Below are positions 17,238 through 61,960 of a stretch of 64,000 nucleotides of DNA, piece by piece (within the stretch, counting starts at the first letter, position 1; every line of letters begins with the position of its first letter). This stretch comes from Corynebacterium renale (GTDB lineage Bacteria; Actinomycetota; Actinomycetes; Mycobacteriales; Mycobacteriaceae): contig NZ_PDJF01000001.1 of assembly GCF_002563965.1 (NCBI RefSeq), positions 496,001 to 560,000 of the forward strand, in the 5' to 3' direction. The notes below the pieces were generated by a model. That model made no database searches, was not told the DNA's origin, and was given only the letters and a program-made list of their open reading frames with translations. Both the position numbers and the translations under genes were made by a program.

Positions 17238-17306
17238 GATGGCCCACGCCTCGGGGGGGTGTGCGTGGGCCATCTGTAACCCGGCCTCGGGGGGGGGTGG
17301 GCCGGG
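17238..17306. repeat. Two consecutive hairpins with long poly-G loops
   Basis: Hairpin 1: GATGGCCCACGC (17238-17249) pairs perfectly with GCGTGGGCCATC (17263-17274) around a loop containing seven G. Hairpin 2: CCCGGCC (17280-17286) pairs with GGCCGGG (17300-17306) around a loop containing nine G. Both loops begin with TCG then the G-run. They lie 12 bp after panC and are probably the end of the panBC transcript, although no T-run follows. Confidence 0.7.
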
Positions 17307-54902: not shown

Positions 54903-57900
54903 TTAGAACTTACGAGCCGTTTTGCGCGAAGTCATGAACGCTGCACCAGCCGCCAAGACACTTCCGATAATCAGCCAGCCGATTCCGTAACCGCCAGTCT
55001 TGGGGAGGTCACCCTTACGGATGTCAGCCACCTGCATAATCGAGTGCGTTACTTCATTCTTATCTACCTTGATAGATATTTCGGGGTACTCGCCAGCACC
55101 TCCTTCAAGCCTAATCTCAGGATTGCCGGACTCATTCTTGACCACATCGAAAACGATGGGGCGTGCAAGCAACTGATAACCTGCTGGCGCCAAAGTCTCA
55201 ACAAGCTCATAACGCTTGCCGACGCCGAGATTTTCAACTCGCGATTTACCATCTGTAATAACTGCGACTTCAGTCCTTTGGTCACCATTTACTTCAAAGA
55301 GCGTGAATTCTGCTCCAGAAAGTTGTTCGGGCTGATCATCAAAACTTACTTTTTCGAGTGACAAATCAATCTCCACGGCGACCTTTTCGTTCTCGATGAC
55401 ACAGTTCACGATCCCCCGGAAAGGAACATTAACGCCAAATCCGGGGCGAGAAGCATCGTTGATATTCCGAATTGTGGTGGGTTTGTCTTTCCACTCCGCT
55501 TTTCCATTAGTGGTCACATACTGGCGGGTAGTGCACACAGCGTTCTCGCCATTTTGCGGTCGAAGGTTATACCCGTCTTGTTGGTGTTCAACAACCGTTA
55601 CGGCTTGACCTTGGCCATCAGACTGATTGAGGGTGCGACCATAGCTTCCATCTGCACTGGTCACATCACGAGTCTGCTCAGTAAGCACGCCATCACCGAT
55701 GAGAACCTGCTTTCCTGAATCGACGGATGTATCAAAGGTCCAGCCTTGTCCTGGGGATTTGATACCGTTTTCGTCATAGACATTCTTCGTGATGTTAATC
55801 GAACCAAAACAGTTATCTAGGATGAGGTCACTCAGTTCCTTTACCAGATTTTGGTAACTATCAACAGTAGTTACAGCATCGGGGCTGGATATGTCTGCTG
55901 CCATTCTATGGGTGTTCCGAACACCTGCCCGCCAGAGTTCGGGCTGGTTATTGACGATATACTCGGTGCCTTCTGGTTTGTCCCAGATGGCCACAGGCTG
56001 GCCATCAGCAAGCAAGTCACGTACCCATTCCTGTTCATTTGGAGTATAACTGGGGTAACCGTACGAATTGGTTGGCCAAGTAGACGGATCTTTCTTACGT
56101 AATTCGACAATGTCGAAGTAGTCGTCTTTCAAGATATGCTCATTGAACGATTCAACGCCAACCATAACCGTTTCAATACGCGTGCCACTGTCTTTCAGAC
56201 GGTTGGCTTCTGTTACAGCCCTAGACAAGTCACTTTGATTAATCAATTCGCCAGCATCGAATCCAGGATCTGGGTAATCACGGTTACTGGTGGTCGGAAT
56301 GCCGTCAGTAATGAAATACACTACATCGTATTCACCTGATGGCACCTGTTTCAAACCATCTTCATAGTTGGTGCCGCCTCTACTAGAATTCTCAATTGCA
56401 CCAACTGCGCGACGCAAATCTTGCACGTCCGATGGGACGTTAAGGTTTTTCGGCGTGGTTGAAACGGCCGGATAGGTGTTTGCTGTCGTTGAGAAGTTAT
56501 AAATAGCCATGGAGCTACCTGTGCCCTGCAGGGCGTCAATAACAGCAAGGCCAGCATCTCGGCTTGGTTCTAAGCCGCCGGCACGGCGTACCGAGCCTGA
56601 AAGGTCAAAGACCAACGCAATTTTTCCACCACAGCGAGGAGGAATGGCAGGGTTTTTCGAAGGGTTTGGTAGCCAGTCCAATTGTTCACGAGGAGTCTCT
56701 GGGGCGTTGATTTCCAGCTTTGGCGCATTCCGGTCCAGCCAATGCGGTCCTTCATGCCAAAGATTCACGGCGCAGTTACTGGTTGATTCAGCTATTGGTA
56801 TGTATGCTTCAACGTCGAAATAACGTGGCTTCCAGCCCTCCTTTGAATCGTAGCTACCTGCGAAATATACGCGCTTCATCGGTTCGCGAAGATCAAAAAA
56901 CAGACTATTCCCGGAAACAGTAACTGTGAAGTCAGAATCTGCGCGCAATTCGGTCCAACCAGATTCGTCGCCACCATAGCGAAGGCGCAAGCGAGGATCG
57001 TTTAGAGCTACCTTTTGTGCGAGGTTACTTACATTATTGACTACTACTTCAACGACATCTGTTTGTCCGCGCTGTTTCGTAGATTGGTACTGATCCCAAT
57101 ATGTTCGCGAATACAGAACTCCACCAGCATAAGTACACTTGTCATCGACTCTATCATTGGGGATTTTTACGAAATTTGACGGACTAGTGGGATTCCCCTC
57201 GGCAGGTGCCTCATATTCGTTCCACAAGGAAACTTTACAGCCACTTGCTCCGCCTTGAATCGGCAGATGCGCTTCGACATCATACGACACAACGTTCGCT
57301 GGCGGGCGCATTTTTGTCGTTTTTAAAGCGAAAAATACTGAATTCCCGCTGGCAAAAACAGTGTAATCTACTCCATTTTGCAGCTCTTGCCATCCGTCTC
57401 CTTGGCTACCAAAGCGAAGCTTGAGTCGAGAATCAGAAACATCTAACTTAGAAGGGACGTCAACATCGTTGACATCGACCTGTACGACATCCACGCCCCC
57501 GTTAGCCAATGCGGAAGATGTGTTATCCCACCAAGTTTTCGCAACAACTACGCCACGATTTGAAGAGCAGGAATCCCAAGTCCTCGAAAGTGGAATTTCG
57601 CGGTAACTGCCAGAATGAAGCGGGTTACCTTGTGTTGGAGGAGTTACTGGTCCGGACGAGATCGGCTGGCCCTGCATCGTTGCTTTCAGGTTAGATGGCT
57701 GTTGGCCTTGCCCCCATTCGATGACGATAGAGCTGTATGGCTGTACTTCCACACCGCCTGGGATCGACACAGTTAATGTCTTACCGCTAACAGACATGTA
57801 GGATATTGGATAATCGACGCCATCAATTGTTAACTTTCGGAGCTTTTCATTCGACCTAGCCGCGAAGTTAACATTACTGGTTAACGTAAGTTTACTCATA

Positions 57901-58145
57901 TTCATGGAAGTACTTGGTTGCATTTCCACAACAAGCTTCCCTACATTCCTATTGAGGTATGAATTAGTAATCTCAACAGGCTCAGTAGAGGTCTGTGCTA
58001 CAGCAGTAGCGGACCTCCCTACTTTTTGGCTTCCATTTCCAGCAGCTGGTAAAAGTGAAAAAACGAGTAGCAGCGAAAAAGTTGCTGCAAGAGCCTTCAC
58101 CGCAGTCGATTTCAGCAAACTCAACGTTATAGTCCTTCTCTTCAT
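54903..58145 (-). CDS. Pilus tip adhesin with von Willebrand A domain (SpaC-like)
   Basis: A 1080-residue surface protein, last gene of the pilus operon. It has a signal peptide (LLKSTAVKALAATFSLLLVFSLLPA), two tandem ~130-residue domains (about 180-330 and 335-475; each has CTYAGGVLYSRTYWD / SSNRGVVVAKTWWD-type starts and an xYDVEAYIPI / SYDVEAHLPI ending with a Cys), a vWA domain (~505-740) with MIDAS start LVFDLSGSVR, and a SpaA-like domain with E-box YELVETLAPAGY. It ends in sorting signal LPKTGG, a helix and KTARKF. It overlaps spaB by TAATG. Confidence 0.93.
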   Translation of the reverse strand: MKRRTITLSLLKSTAVKALAATFSLLLVFSLLPAAGNGSQKVGRSATAVAQTSTEPVEITNSYLNRNVGKLVVEMQPSTSMNMSKLTLTSNVNFAARSNEKLRKLTIDGVDYPISYMSVSGKTLTVSIPGGVEVQPYSSIVIEWGQGQQPSNLKATMQGQPISSGPVTPPTQGNPLHSGSYREIPLSRTWDSCSSNRGVVVAKTWWDNTSSALANGGVDVVQVDVNDVDVPSKLDVSDSRLKLRFGSQGDGWQELQNGVDYTVFASGNSVFFALKTTKMRPPANVVSYDVEAHLPIQGGASGCKVSLWNEYEAPAEGNPTSPSNFVKIPNDRVDDKCTYAGGVLYSRTYWDQYQSTKQRGQTDVVEVVVNNVSNLAQKVALNDPRLRLRYGGDESGWTELRADSDFTVTVSGNSLFFDLREPMKRVYFAGSYDSKEGWKPRYFDVEAYIPIAESTSNCAVNLWHEGPHWLDRNAPKLEINAPETPREQLDWLPNPSKNPAIPPRCGGKIALVFDLSGSVRRAGGLEPSRDAGLAVIDALQGTGSSMAIYNFSTTANTYPAVSTTPKNLNVPSDVQDLRRAVGAIENSSRGGTNYEDGLKQVPSGEYDVVYFITDGIPTTSNRDYPDPGFDAGELINQSDLSRAVTEANRLKDSGTRIETVMVGVESFNEHILKDDYFDIVELRKKDPSTWPTNSYGYPSYTPNEQEWVRDLLADGQPVAIWDKPEGTEYIVNNQPELWRAGVRNTHRMAADISSPDAVTTVDSYQNLVKELSDLILDNCFGSINITKNVYDENGIKSPGQGWTFDTSVDSGKQVLIGDGVLTEQTRDVTSADGSYGRTLNQSDGQGQAVTVVEHQQDGYNLRPQNGENAVCTTRQYVTTNGKAEWKDKPTTIRNINDASRPGFGVNVPFRGIVNCVIENEKVAVEIDLSLEKVSFDDQPEQLSGAEFTLFEVNGDQRTEVAVITDGKSRVENLGVGKRYELVETLAPAGYQLLARPIVFDVVKNESGNPEIRLEGGAGEYPEISIKVDKNEVTHSIMQVADIRKGDLPKTGGYGIGWLIIGSVLAAGAAFMTSRKTARKF

Positions 58146-58948
58146 TATTTACTTCCCCTAGCACGTCGTATAGCCAAACCACCGAACATAACCATGATGA
58201 GACCAATCACGATAATTCCGAGAACTGATGCTCCGGTCTCAGGAAGCCGACCTGTACCGGGTTTGTCAGGCGTGGTTTCTGTTGTTGGGGGTGGCGTTTG
58301 AGAAGTTGTTAGCGGGGGTGGCGTAGGTGTTGGCGTGGGATTAGGATTTGGTATTTCTTTTGGAGGGGTTGGCGTTGTTATACCGTTATCGGATTTCACC
58401 TCGATAGTCACCTCATCAAGCCAAGCTCCAGATTTGCTGGTCATCGGGAGCAGCACTAGCAACGGTTTAATGCTCTTGTGCTTCACACCGGGAATGGCAG
58501 GTGGTTCAGTTTCAATGAGATATAAGCCAGGCTTCATTCCTTCAAAGCGAGCCTGTCCTTCGGAATCGCTTACGGCACTGCGATATGTCTTAGCAAAGCC
58601 AAGTTTCTCGGCCTCCGGGACCGTAAGGCTACGAGCGCGCGAGTATCCATCTTCAGTTCGGACGTCAATTCGATCAATCTGCCGGACCGTAAATGTGTAT
58701 CCTTCCAACGCACCTGGGGGTAACTCGCCTGTTGGAATATCATCAAAAATATTATTTCGGGGCAAGGTGATTATCAGAGTGGTGTTCCGCTCACCAATCG
58801 ACCGTGGATTTACAACAGTTCCAGTATTTGCATAACCAGAAATTACACCGACATCAGCTTGTGCCTCCTGTAGGCCCAGACCCACACAACAGCTCACTGT
58901 CATAGCCGTGGTTAGGGTGGTAGCAAGCGCATACCGTTGAAGATACAT
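58145..58948 (-). CDS. Minor/base pilin, SpaB-like
   Basis: A 267-residue protein with an N-terminal signal peptide (ALATTLTTAMTVSCCVGLGLQEAQA), a pilin-fold core with YLIETEPPAIPGV at ~125 (E-box-like), a Pro/Thr-rich stalk (PNPTPTPTPPPLTTSQTPPP), and a sorting signal LPETGA followed by a helix and RRARGSK. Its size and its proline-rich stalk suit a basal pilin that links the fibre to the wall. It begins 2 bp after the sortase stop. Confidence 0.9.
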   Translation of the reverse strand: MYLQRYALATTLTTAMTVSCCVGLGLQEAQADVGVISGYANTGTVVNPRSIGERNTTLIITLPRNNIFDDIPTGELPPGALEGYTFTVRQIDRIDVRTEDGYSRARSLTVPEAEKLGFAKTYRSAVSDSEGQARFEGMKPGLYLIETEPPAIPGVKHKSIKPLLVLLPMTSKSGAWLDEVTIEVKSDNGITTPTPPKEIPNPNPTPTPTPPPLTTSQTPPPTTETTPDKPGTGRLPETGASVLGIIVIGLIMVMFGGLAIRRARGSK

Positions 58949-58950
58949 TC

Positions 58951-59865
58951 TTAAGCACCATCTTTCAGATCCGCCAGCGAACGGAGTTTATCGTTATGTC
59001 TTTTCGTGGTCTTGCGCACCCATAGGAATAGCAGAATTCCTATGAGCAACGCTCCCGCCAGCATTGCCCACATCCACCATGCCCACTGCAGTCCACTTGT
59101 TTGAAATACTTCCTCTTCAGTGGAATCCATCGGCACGCGTTGAGCTGTTACTAAAAGGCTGTGGCTATTGATGCCGTAAGGTGTGCACGTAATAAGCGTG
59201 ATTTGGTCTTTTCCGGCTTCGGGGCGCAATGTGTTTGTTTCATGCGGGAGGACTACCCGAATATCGTCGACAACATACTTGAGCTTCTCACCGGAGACCC
59301 CCAAATAGATAGCATCACCTTTGACCACATCATCAAGGTTGTCGAACAATGTGGCATTTGTAAGTCCTGTGTGCGCAGTGAGTACAGCATGAGTCCCTTG
59401 ACCACCAACTGGTAGATCCGAGCCGTAAAGGTGTCCCACGCCTTTCTGAAGCGTTTTTTCACTCGTCCCGTGGTAAACCGGTAAATCTACTTTGATACCA
59501 GGAATTACCAAACGCGCCATCACATCATGGGTATCTAATTCTGCCAGATAATTTTGATAATCAGTATTGTCTTCCGATATTCGGTTAAGCCATGGATCAA
59601 GAATTGGCCCGTCCGAATGATTCGAATTATAGACCTGCGCAGAAGTATAGCGTTCTTCGAGTTCAGAAGTATTAGCTCCATCTATACTTCTAGTGTATTG
59701 CGCGGCCACCCTCATTTGTTCCCAGTTATTTAATTGTGTCACGACTACTGGATACACCAGGAGCACTATAGCAATAAGCGCGAGTAAACACGTGGGAATA
59801 AGTTTCTTCGCAAGGGACGCTTGATCGCCATCCCGCTTTTGCCTCTGCGACGTTGATAAAACCAT
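58951..59865 (-). CDS. Class C sortase (pilin polymerase)
   Basis: A 304-residue transpeptidase that joins pilin subunits. The catalytic Cys is in ITLITCTPYG (TLxTC), the His in VLTAHTGLT, and Arg downstream in TAQRVPM. The class C lid motif DPW is present in GPILDPWLNR. N- and C-terminal membrane helices (LIPTCLLALIAIVLLVYPVVV and WWMWAMLAGALLIGILLFLWV) flank the domain. It lies 88 bp after the major pilin gene, with a hairpin in the gap. Confidence 0.95.
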   Translation of the reverse strand: MVLSTSQRQKRDGDQASLAKKLIPTCLLALIAIVLLVYPVVVTQLNNWEQMRVAAQYTRSIDGANTSELEERYTSAQVYNSNHSDGPILDPWLNRISEDNTDYQNYLAELDTHDVMARLVIPGIKVDLPVYHGTSEKTLQKGVGHLYGSDLPVGGQGTHAVLTAHTGLTNATLFDNLDDVVKGDAIYLGVSGEKLKYVVDDIRVVLPHETNTLRPEAGKDQITLITCTPYGINSHSLLVTAQRVPMDSTEEEVFQTSGLQWAWWMWAMLAGALLIGILLFLWVRKTTKRHNDKLRSLADLKDGA

Positions 59866-59953: not shown

Positions 59954-61481
59954 TTAAGCCTTAGCGTTGTTACGACGTGCGACCCAAGCAGCTAGGCCTG
60001 CTACAAGAGCAGCCAATGCTGCAAGAATGCCAACACCCATACCACCGGTAAGAGGTAGTTGCGGCATTTCGGAGCGCTTGTTCTCAACCTTTGCGGTGTA
60101 TTGAACTGGTTCGCTAGTGTTGAGCTTCTCATCGCTCGAGACTAGCTTGAAAGAGATAATGTCTTTCGTAGCCACAAAGCCCTTCGGTGCCTTGGTCTCG
60201 ACCAAGCAGTAGGTCTTATCGATCGTGCTGCTGTTGTTTTCCACATCGGTCACGTGCAGACCGTCGATGACGACCTTGCCGTCCTCGCCGGTGGTCCACT
60301 TATCAGTGCTGCCAACGGTGATCTTGTCGGTTAGCTGAGAAACTTCAGTCTCTGCACCCGTGCAGCGGTAAAGCTCGAATTCAGCGCCTTGAAGAGGAGT
60401 TTCCTTGCCTTCTTCGGTCTTGACGATGTTTACCAGACCCCAGTAGGTCTTGACTTTTTCAGACGTGGTTGTCGTCTCTTGGTCCTGGCCTGGGTAATGA
60501 ATATGCTGACGTGCTTCGTTTACGGCAATACCGTCGGTTCCCGCTACAGGCTTAACCTTTGCGGTGATTGTCAAATCGACGGTGGTCGCAGGTGCGAGTC
60601 CGGAGAGCTTCTTCAGGCCATCCTGAGTGAACTTAACCTCAACTTCACCAGTAGCTTGGTTGATGGTTAGATCATAGTCTGCACCATCCGCGATTGCGGT
60701 GCCATCCGACAGCGCTACTTCTGCACGAATATTTTCCAGGTTTTCCACATCAAGGGTGTCGGTGATACGGAACGCCTTGAGAGTTTCACCCTGTGGAATT
60801 ACTGGCACGGTACCCTTAACCAGGTACTTAATGTCGTCACTAACGTTTTGGTCAGCGTCAACTACTTCCTTAGTAATTCCGGATGTAGTGTTTTTCGGCT
60901 GAACCGTTACGTTGTAATTCCAACCGTTACCTTCAGAATTCGTGTACGGAAGAGAGACGATGAACGGAGTTGAAGGAGCGACGTCGGCTGCAGCATAAGT
61001 CTTCTGAGTGACCGTGTCGGTGACTTCACCTTCAATTGTTTCGGTGAACAGCCAGATGCCCTGGTCGATGGAGGAAGAGCCTTCCTCAAATACCAACTTG
61101 CCGTCCGCACCGGTCGTGCCTGTGACAGTGGTCTGTGTGAGTGTAGCCCCGAGCTCTTTATAGTTTGCTGCGGTGAGAGTACCAAGCTTAGCTGGATCAA
61201 CGTTGTCAACGTTCAGCAGCGTACCAGTGAATGTAGCGCCCTGAAGAGGATTGCCTGTTACGGCTGGATCTGCAACACCAGAACCAGGTCCACCGATCGC
61301 GGTCGGGTTGAGACGCTTGTCAATGGTGAGAGTAACCTTAGCATCAGGATCAATTGTCGGGGAAACTACAGAGGGCTGCTGGCTCTGAGCGCTAGCTACA
61401 GACCCCCCCCGCTACTAGCGCAAGGCCCAGAACGGCTGCTGCGCTGGCGGAGCGAATATAAGTCGTACGCATGGAATTCAT
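59954..61481 (-). pseudogene. spaA: Major pilin (SpaA-like), out of frame in the signal peptide (G8 tract)
   Basis: The start codon (ATG 61481 or 61472) opens a signal peptide MNSMRTTYIRSASAAAVLGL then ALVAGG, but a run of eight G at 61410-61403 shifts the frame to VCS and a stop. With seven G the frame continues as VAGGSVASAQSQQPSVVSPT and stays open to 59954, giving ~508 residues with a pilin motif WNYNVTVQPKN (~Lys donor), an E-box YCLVETKAPKGF and sorting signal LPLTGG plus a helix and RRNNAKA tail. The downstream part is intact with no other stops, so this is more likely a phase-off allele or a homopolymer error than a decayed gene. Confidence 0.85.
61403..61410 (-). repeat. Homopolymer tract C8 (G8 on coding strand) in spaA
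   Basis: Eight C on the plus strand, flanked by GA and GCTAC. The tract sits in codons ~26-28 of spaA, at the end of the signal-peptide hydrophobic core. Seven G restores the frame. Confidence 0.95.
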
Positions 61482-61960
61482 GCTCTTTCTACTAGGTGTG
61501 AAGGAATGTCCTAGACTCTATTTCCCTATGTCTCGACGTAACCTATCTCCATCGAGCCTAGGGAAATACCTGGAAAATTATTATTTCCACAGGAAAAGCC
61601 GAACACGTAGGCAGCTTACAGCAACATTCCATTCATGTAAAGGTCTGCATCGTTCCTGACTGGGTGAGCAACCCATCACGTGCGAGCTGACATTCAAAAT
61701 ATCAATCTCAAGCTGATGTGGTCCGCGTTCGTACTTAAAAAAACCTTGCTGGTAGTACGCAATGAAACAAGCAACCACAGGGGAATGGTTGTGGTTACCT
61801 AGGAGCCCTACAACAGCTAACTGCCAAAGAATATTTTTCGGGCTTTGCTTGAAAAAATATCAATCACAGCCGACGCATAGCTCCTAGACGCAGCTCCATT
61901 CACGAGCAATCTTGTCATAGTTTCTTTAATCACATTTCAGCTCGGCGGACATTCCAGTTT
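61482..61960. other. Non-coding region between spaA and recR
   Basis: AT-rich, no convincing gene. It contains a structured leader element (61521-61566), a hairpin AACCACA/TGTGGTT (61773-61796), an ATATTTTTC/GAAAAAATAT hairpin (61831-61860) and an outer pair CTAGGAGC/GCTCCTAG (61799-61806 and 61880-61887) that encloses it. The spaA promoter must lie here; candidates such as TAGAGT near 61517 are weak. Confidence 0.6.
61521..61566. promoter_or_regulatory. Two-part inverted repeat upstream of spaA
   Basis: TTTCCCTA (61521-61528) pairs with TAGGGAAA (61559-61566), and inside it CTCGA (61532-61536) with TCGAG (61553-61557). It starts 40 bp before the spaA ATG and could be an operator or a 5'-UTR hairpin. 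Confidence 0.55.

Follow-up and report, generated by a model that had tools for sequence, protein, structure and literature searches.

Does a pilin gene that is split in two frames at a homopolymer represent a broken gene, a sequencing error or one state of a switch? The question is raised by a locus of Corynebacterium renale contained in a stretch of 64,000 nucleotides (positions 496001-560000 of one 2,348,927-base contig, hereafter the window), in which the gene for the major subunit of a sortase-assembled pilus changes frame at a run of eight guanines (G8). The closest RecR among 242 Corynebacterium genomes has 87% identity to that of this genome. We consider it likely that the G8 tract is a slipped-strand phase-variation switch of the pilus, a reading supported by the split frames, the rarity of such tracts, the open downstream genes, a strong association of G tracts with pilin genes across the genus and a precedent in Bifidobacterium.

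The split major pilin gene

The original prediction had placed a G8 tract in the signal-peptide region of the pilin gene and had the signal-peptide frame shift into an early stop after it, and both points were confirmed when the sequence was read directly. The elements concerned are the following:

61403 to 61410, coding strand minus (C8 on the plus strand): G8 homopolymer
61392 to 61481, minus strand: signal-peptide-like frame, with ATG at 61481, 29 codons and TAG at 61394-61392, ending just past the G8
59954 to 61411, minus strand: major pilin body frame, SpaH/EbpB family (the post-tract piece scores 321 bits against NF033902, cut-off 95)

The 29-codon frame, which has a second in-frame ATG at 61472, encodes a basic stretch first and a hydrophobic one next, as in a signal peptide, and a similar N-terminal layout is found in full-length pilin relatives. 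The pilin body frame is open for 485 codons from 61411, with the preceding stop at 61414-61412 and its own stop ending at 59954, and the predicted sorting signal, LPLTG, is present near its end. The two frames overlap at the tract and, as each is closed beyond it, the frame change is confined to 17 nt (61395-61411) with the tract inside. A joined frame of about 508 codons had been proposed, and its two parts, taken separately, are of 29 and 485 codons. The arrangement is that of a homopolymer switch, with a long homopolymer sited where a change in length alters the frame.

The rest of the operon had been described as intact, and the sortase gene and the two minor pilin genes 3' of the major pilin do all have open frames:

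58951 to 59865, minus strand: class C (pilin-polymerising) sortase (NF033745, 266.7 bits, cut-off 160; PF04203)
58145 to 58948, minus strand: small LPETG pilin (partial NF033902 match of 71.3 bits, below the cut-off of 95)
54903 to 58145, minus strand: 1080-amino-acid LPKTG pilin (PF17802; NF033902 57.3 bits, under the cut-off)
61482 to 61960, minus strand: intergenic region upstream of the pilin

Judging by size and gene order, the small LPETG pilin, which has no Pfam match at 0.001, is probably the basal subunit, and the LPKTG pilin is probably the tip subunit. The locus is of the SpaA/SpaH type in that its major pilin scores above the model cut-off and a dedicated class C sortase stands beside the pilins, and it departs from this type in the assembly in that the export signal is out of frame with the pilin body, the two being split at the G8. 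The intergenic region contains no G/C run of at least 8 and no match to the sigma-70 consensus.

A split of this kind might also be left by a single frameshift that put an end to the pilin for good, the gene then being a plain pseudogene, and a frameshifted spaA is reported from most, though not all, Equi strains of C. pseudotuberculosis with no switch invoked in the extract concerned (PMC5406005). Against this, no stop codon or other damage was found in the 485 codons, and the further inactivating mutations in spaA that, according to the original prediction, would contradict a switch are not seen in this genome; the sortase and minor pilins are open; and the frame changes exactly at a rare tract of a kind linked to pilin genes across the genus. 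The post-tract frame is also constrained (pN 0.22-0.33 versus pS 0.73-0.75, three relatives), though with saturated dS such constraint is still compatible with a very recent loss. Taking these points together, we regard a plain pseudogene as decidedly improbable.

Scarcity of long G/C runs in the genome

G/C runs of length 4, 5, 6, 7, 8 and 9 occur 367, 82, 6, 1, 1 and 1 times in the window, and the whole genome contains eight distinct runs of at least 8 (14 overlapping matches), one of which sits on the 17 nt where the pilin gene changes frame. GGG is the least used glycine codon, both in nine open reading frames (ORFs; 30 of 302 glycine codons) and in the four ORFs of the pilus operon (13 of 168).

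The tract length may also have been misread, in which case the pilin gene would be intact in every cell. Homopolymers are the usual site of error, as stated for Ion Torrent data (PMC5406005), and a protease gene of the same genome (L002, described below) is frame-split at a G10 and elsewhere. However, three relatives supplied 805 ORFs (from 320 kb) for comparison with the window, and in the approximately 38 kb to which these ORFs could be matched (383 of the 640 bins of 100 bp) no frameshift was found. The sole candidate, at 30.8 kb, was rejected: its lower part is YqeY, complete as a gene (163.9 bits), and its upper part matches, in antisense, a phosphoesterase gene of the opposite strand. 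Frameshifts are therefore not widespread in the assembly, although errors at homopolymers may still occur. Such an error would, moreover, leave the gathering of tracts at pilin genes described below unexplained, and we think it unlikely to account for the locus.

G tracts at pilin genes across Corynebacterium

With the C. striatum pilin P0004 as the query (E 1e-30 or better), 89 of 242 Corynebacterium genomes were matched, including that of the window. All 97 listed pilin places besides the window's own were examined as 95 stretches (1.30 Mb), counting G/C runs of at least 8 and taking -600 to +150 of the pilin start as the near-start region. Sixteen such runs lie in the 72,528 nt near pilin starts and three in the 1,231,367 nt elsewhere, a roughly 90-fold (90.5) difference with p 7e-18 when loci are treated as independent. 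Fifteen of the 16 near-start tracts are G on the sense strand. They come from 16 loci in 15 genomes and fall into 11 groups by flank similarity, two of which (L116, L124) are loci of a single genome and related to each other; with 11 groups, the link between tracts and pilins is not due to one inherited tract.

The contrast persists when the counting is varied. Among noncoding sequence only, as delimited by crude ORF prediction, 15 runs are found in 35,463 nt near starts (the prediction puts the L151 tract in a coding sequence) versus two in 137,273 nt of other noncoding DNA, and pilin-free control stretches from three genomes contain no run of at least 8 in 320,000 nt. Three pairs of stretches overlap, so that 13,617 nt were counted twice, though no tract was. 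For runs of at least 7, in the first 80 loci, the count is 21 near pilin starts versus nine elsewhere (40-fold); runs of 7 (e.g., L090, L105, L126, L136, L137, L149 and L189) are outside the main count. With L154 left out, 15 near-start tracts stand against three elsewhere (85.1-fold).

The genome of L154 (G129) has 388 overlapping G9 matches, with long runs on C4 and C14, for example. These poly-G runs are probably sequencing artefacts, which makes the L154 tract untrustworthy.

Of the first 201 genomes to be searched, G006 gave the best pilin match (62%); the sole G run of at least 9 in its whole genome lies at 2225714-2225723, and the pilin match begins at 2225928. At the level of the class, the pilin family was found at E 1e-40 in four of 296 genomes, that of the window included; the other three loci (L226, L227 and L229), of 4.4-4.6 kb each, contain no G/C run of at least 7, which says little.

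All three tracts counted as lying elsewhere are situated at the large gene that immediately precedes the pilin gene and presumably encodes a tip protein, so that each of the 19 tracts of at least 8 in these stretches is at a pilus gene. These three are:

L081: G9 some 500 nt ahead of an open frame of 1244 codons that encodes an LPKTG protein
L087: G9, in frame, inside a 1231-codon protein with LPAAG near its end
L139 (G180:C12 about 116581-116591): C11 splitting a signal-peptide-like frame from a 1675-codon frame with LPASG near its end

At L139 the signal-peptide-like frame runs into the C11 and stops, while the 1675-codon frame opens 16 nt before the tract. This is the design seen in the window on a different pilus subunit, and it gives a second example in the genus of a pilus tract lying within a gene.

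The gathering of G tracts at pilus genes across Corynebacterium is the larger result of this study. It is fairly likely, in our judgement, that poly-G contingency switches are recurrent in the pilus operons of this genus and were gained several times independently, mostly upstream of the major pilin but also in the export signal or early codons of the major pilin (the window) or of the neighbouring large surface protein (L139), in which case piliation would be widely phase-variable.

Tract lengths in relatives

All tract lengths are given as assembled. L151 has G12 and L152 has G10, although the two loci do not differ in the 104 nt from the tract to the start or in the initial 1500 nt of the gene (104/104 and 1500/1500); the 500 nt to the left align with 28 gap columns. 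The tracts of L086, L093 and L094 are 9, 10 and 11 long, respectively, with identical left flanks (500/500 nt) and right flanks agreeing at 282-283 of 285 nt, while L115 and L118 both have tracts of 10.

G runs are in principle slippery for other polymerases too, and productive slippage by RNA polymerase or the ribosome would give a constant low level of pilin from unchanged DNA. The DNA length differences between near-identical loci and the mostly intergenic position of the tracts in relatives point to DNA slippage instead, which makes this explanation very improbable.

No in-frame allele of this species was found among the 120 best of 611 protein matches. The search scored the 7997 candidates sharing most words, among which the next protein after the window's own pilin is 75% identical; the protein cluster of the window's pilin has three member sequences from two contigs. 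Two other proteins, P0024 and P0033, have N-termini that start past the signal-peptide region of their relatives or read it in another frame, which suggests that they may be out-of-frame pilin alleles of other lineages.

Placement of tracts relative to promoter-like elements

In one flank group comprising four of the 16 tracts (L115, L118, L151 and L152), the tract separates TGGACA from TAAATT or TAGATT. A promoter scan, with a chance expectation of 0.1-0.3 per region, reported a promoter with a spacer of 18 for both L118 and L152 and no promoter for L151, where the spacer is 20; its support for this group is modest. In another group (L086, L093 and L094; three of 16) the tract begins 12 nt after TATAAT. 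The remaining nine of the 16 tracts have no convincing promoter placement, and outside the one group with this anatomy a promoter switch is therefore a guess; as a general model it was rejected.

Comparison with known systems

The closest match of the proposed switch is with the sortase pili of Bifidobacterium. In B. breve, the genes that open sortase-pilus clusters (bbr_0113 and bbr_1889) contain a G tract at which replication slippage has been demonstrated, derivatives in which the frames were joined showed pilus-like structures not observed for the parent, and transcription drops past the stop of the first frame; G tracts are also reported in B. longum, B. dentium, B. bifidum and B. pseudocatenulatum (PMC9187656). 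As in the window, the export signal and LPXTG body of the pilin are in two frames around the G tract, which is 8-13 nt long across Table 1 of that paper and located in the first pilin gene of the cluster, and the recorded genome is out of frame (PMC9187656). The genus and the pilin are different, however, and the window tract is a G8 in the signal-peptide codons of the major pilin, whereas the relatives of the window mostly carry the tract upstream of the gene.

Other systems are more distant. Cutibacterium (Propionibacterium) acnes is likewise an actinobacterium with G/C tracts at the 5' ends of surface-protein genes, including adhesin genes such as that of DsA1, and in promoters, one of them reportedly between -10 and -35, though these tracts do not concern pili and their variation is said to follow clades (PMC6560440, PMC4746626). 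In Neisseria porA a promoter poly-G sets expression, which resembles the arrangement in L115, L118, L151 and L152, but the product is a Gram-negative porin and the window's own tract is coding (PMC3639595). For the pil1 locus of Streptococcus gallolyticus, slipped-strand repeats control a Gram-positive sortase pilus, as proposed here, although there the repeats are of GCAGA, lie in a leader peptide and act on a terminator, in place of a homopolymer of the pilin gene or its promoter (PMC3894217). Among the matches listed from the open-licence literature, no poly-G switching of Corynebacterium pili was recognised, in agreement with the original prediction, whose author knew of no such switch in corynebacterial pili.

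Proposed mechanism and its weighing

In the mechanism that we propose, replication slippage in the G run would reversibly alter the tract length, so that only part of the cells would have the pilin body in frame with its export signal. The state recorded in the assembly would be OFF, with translation stopping at codon 30 and the pilin consequently not exported, while the expression of the downstream sortase and minor pilins would probably be lowered by polarity, by analogy with B. breve. In other Corynebacterium species the upstream G tracts would probably do the same job via promoter spacing or the 5' leader. Gating of the fibre in this way may be of benefit to the cell.

Several points weigh against a switch. 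No tract of at least 8 lies inside the signal-peptide codons of the major pilin at any of the 97 further loci, and 81 of these 97 have no such tract at all between -600 and +150. Length differences are known from the upstream tracts of relatives and not from the window's own G8, and they could include assembly error. A tract of eight is short, those of Bifidobacterium being 8 to 13 and mostly 10-11, and in P. acnes the variation of G/C tracts went with clade and was interpreted as accumulating slowly (PMC4746626). Promoter-like hexamers enclose the tract in only one of the 11 flank groups, from a scan that would itself return 0.1-0.3 promoters by chance, and the only other signal-peptide tract examined in this genome (C1:228054) is followed by a second frame change downstream, so that the gene there may simply be broken. 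The phase-variable switch as originally predicted is partly supported, by the anatomy, the tract scarcity, the open downstream genes, the genus-wide link, L139 and the Bifidobacterium precedent; a length change at this tract, cells of this species in the ON state and a recorded length free of assembly error are presumed.

Corynebacterial Spa pili are a classic model of sortase-built fibres. If their genes are indeed widely switched in this way, a pilin pseudogene called from a single genome may be one state of a switch caught at a given moment, the outcome of adhesion assays may vary between colonies of one strain, and Bifidobacterium, Cutibacterium and Corynebacterium would have arrived at like solutions. 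The list of tracts makes it possible for switching to be addressed with existing read sets.

Other long runs in the genome

The remaining long runs of this genome (L005, L008 and L010, together with L011, L012 and L013, which are intergenic or unplaced) give no support for the switch reading. A G9 at 17289-17297 of the window (L005) is intergenic and lies inside a G/C-rich inverted repeat resembling a terminator; the gene before it is presumably panC-like. The L010 tract appears to be part of what we take to be a tRNA gene. At C1:578765-578773 (L008, G000) a G9 is located in frame near the 3' end of a gene that we assume to be acyltransferase-like, and this is a possible further contingency locus.

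The protease gene mentioned above, which we take to be that of a subtilisin-like secreted protease, carries a G10 in its signal-peptide region (C1:228054-228063; L002, G000), and relatives were found at E 1e-40 in 14 of 151 genomes, that of the window included. As its frames change at the G10 and once more downstream, it was rejected as a clean second switch in the genome; the gene may be decayed or a further switch.
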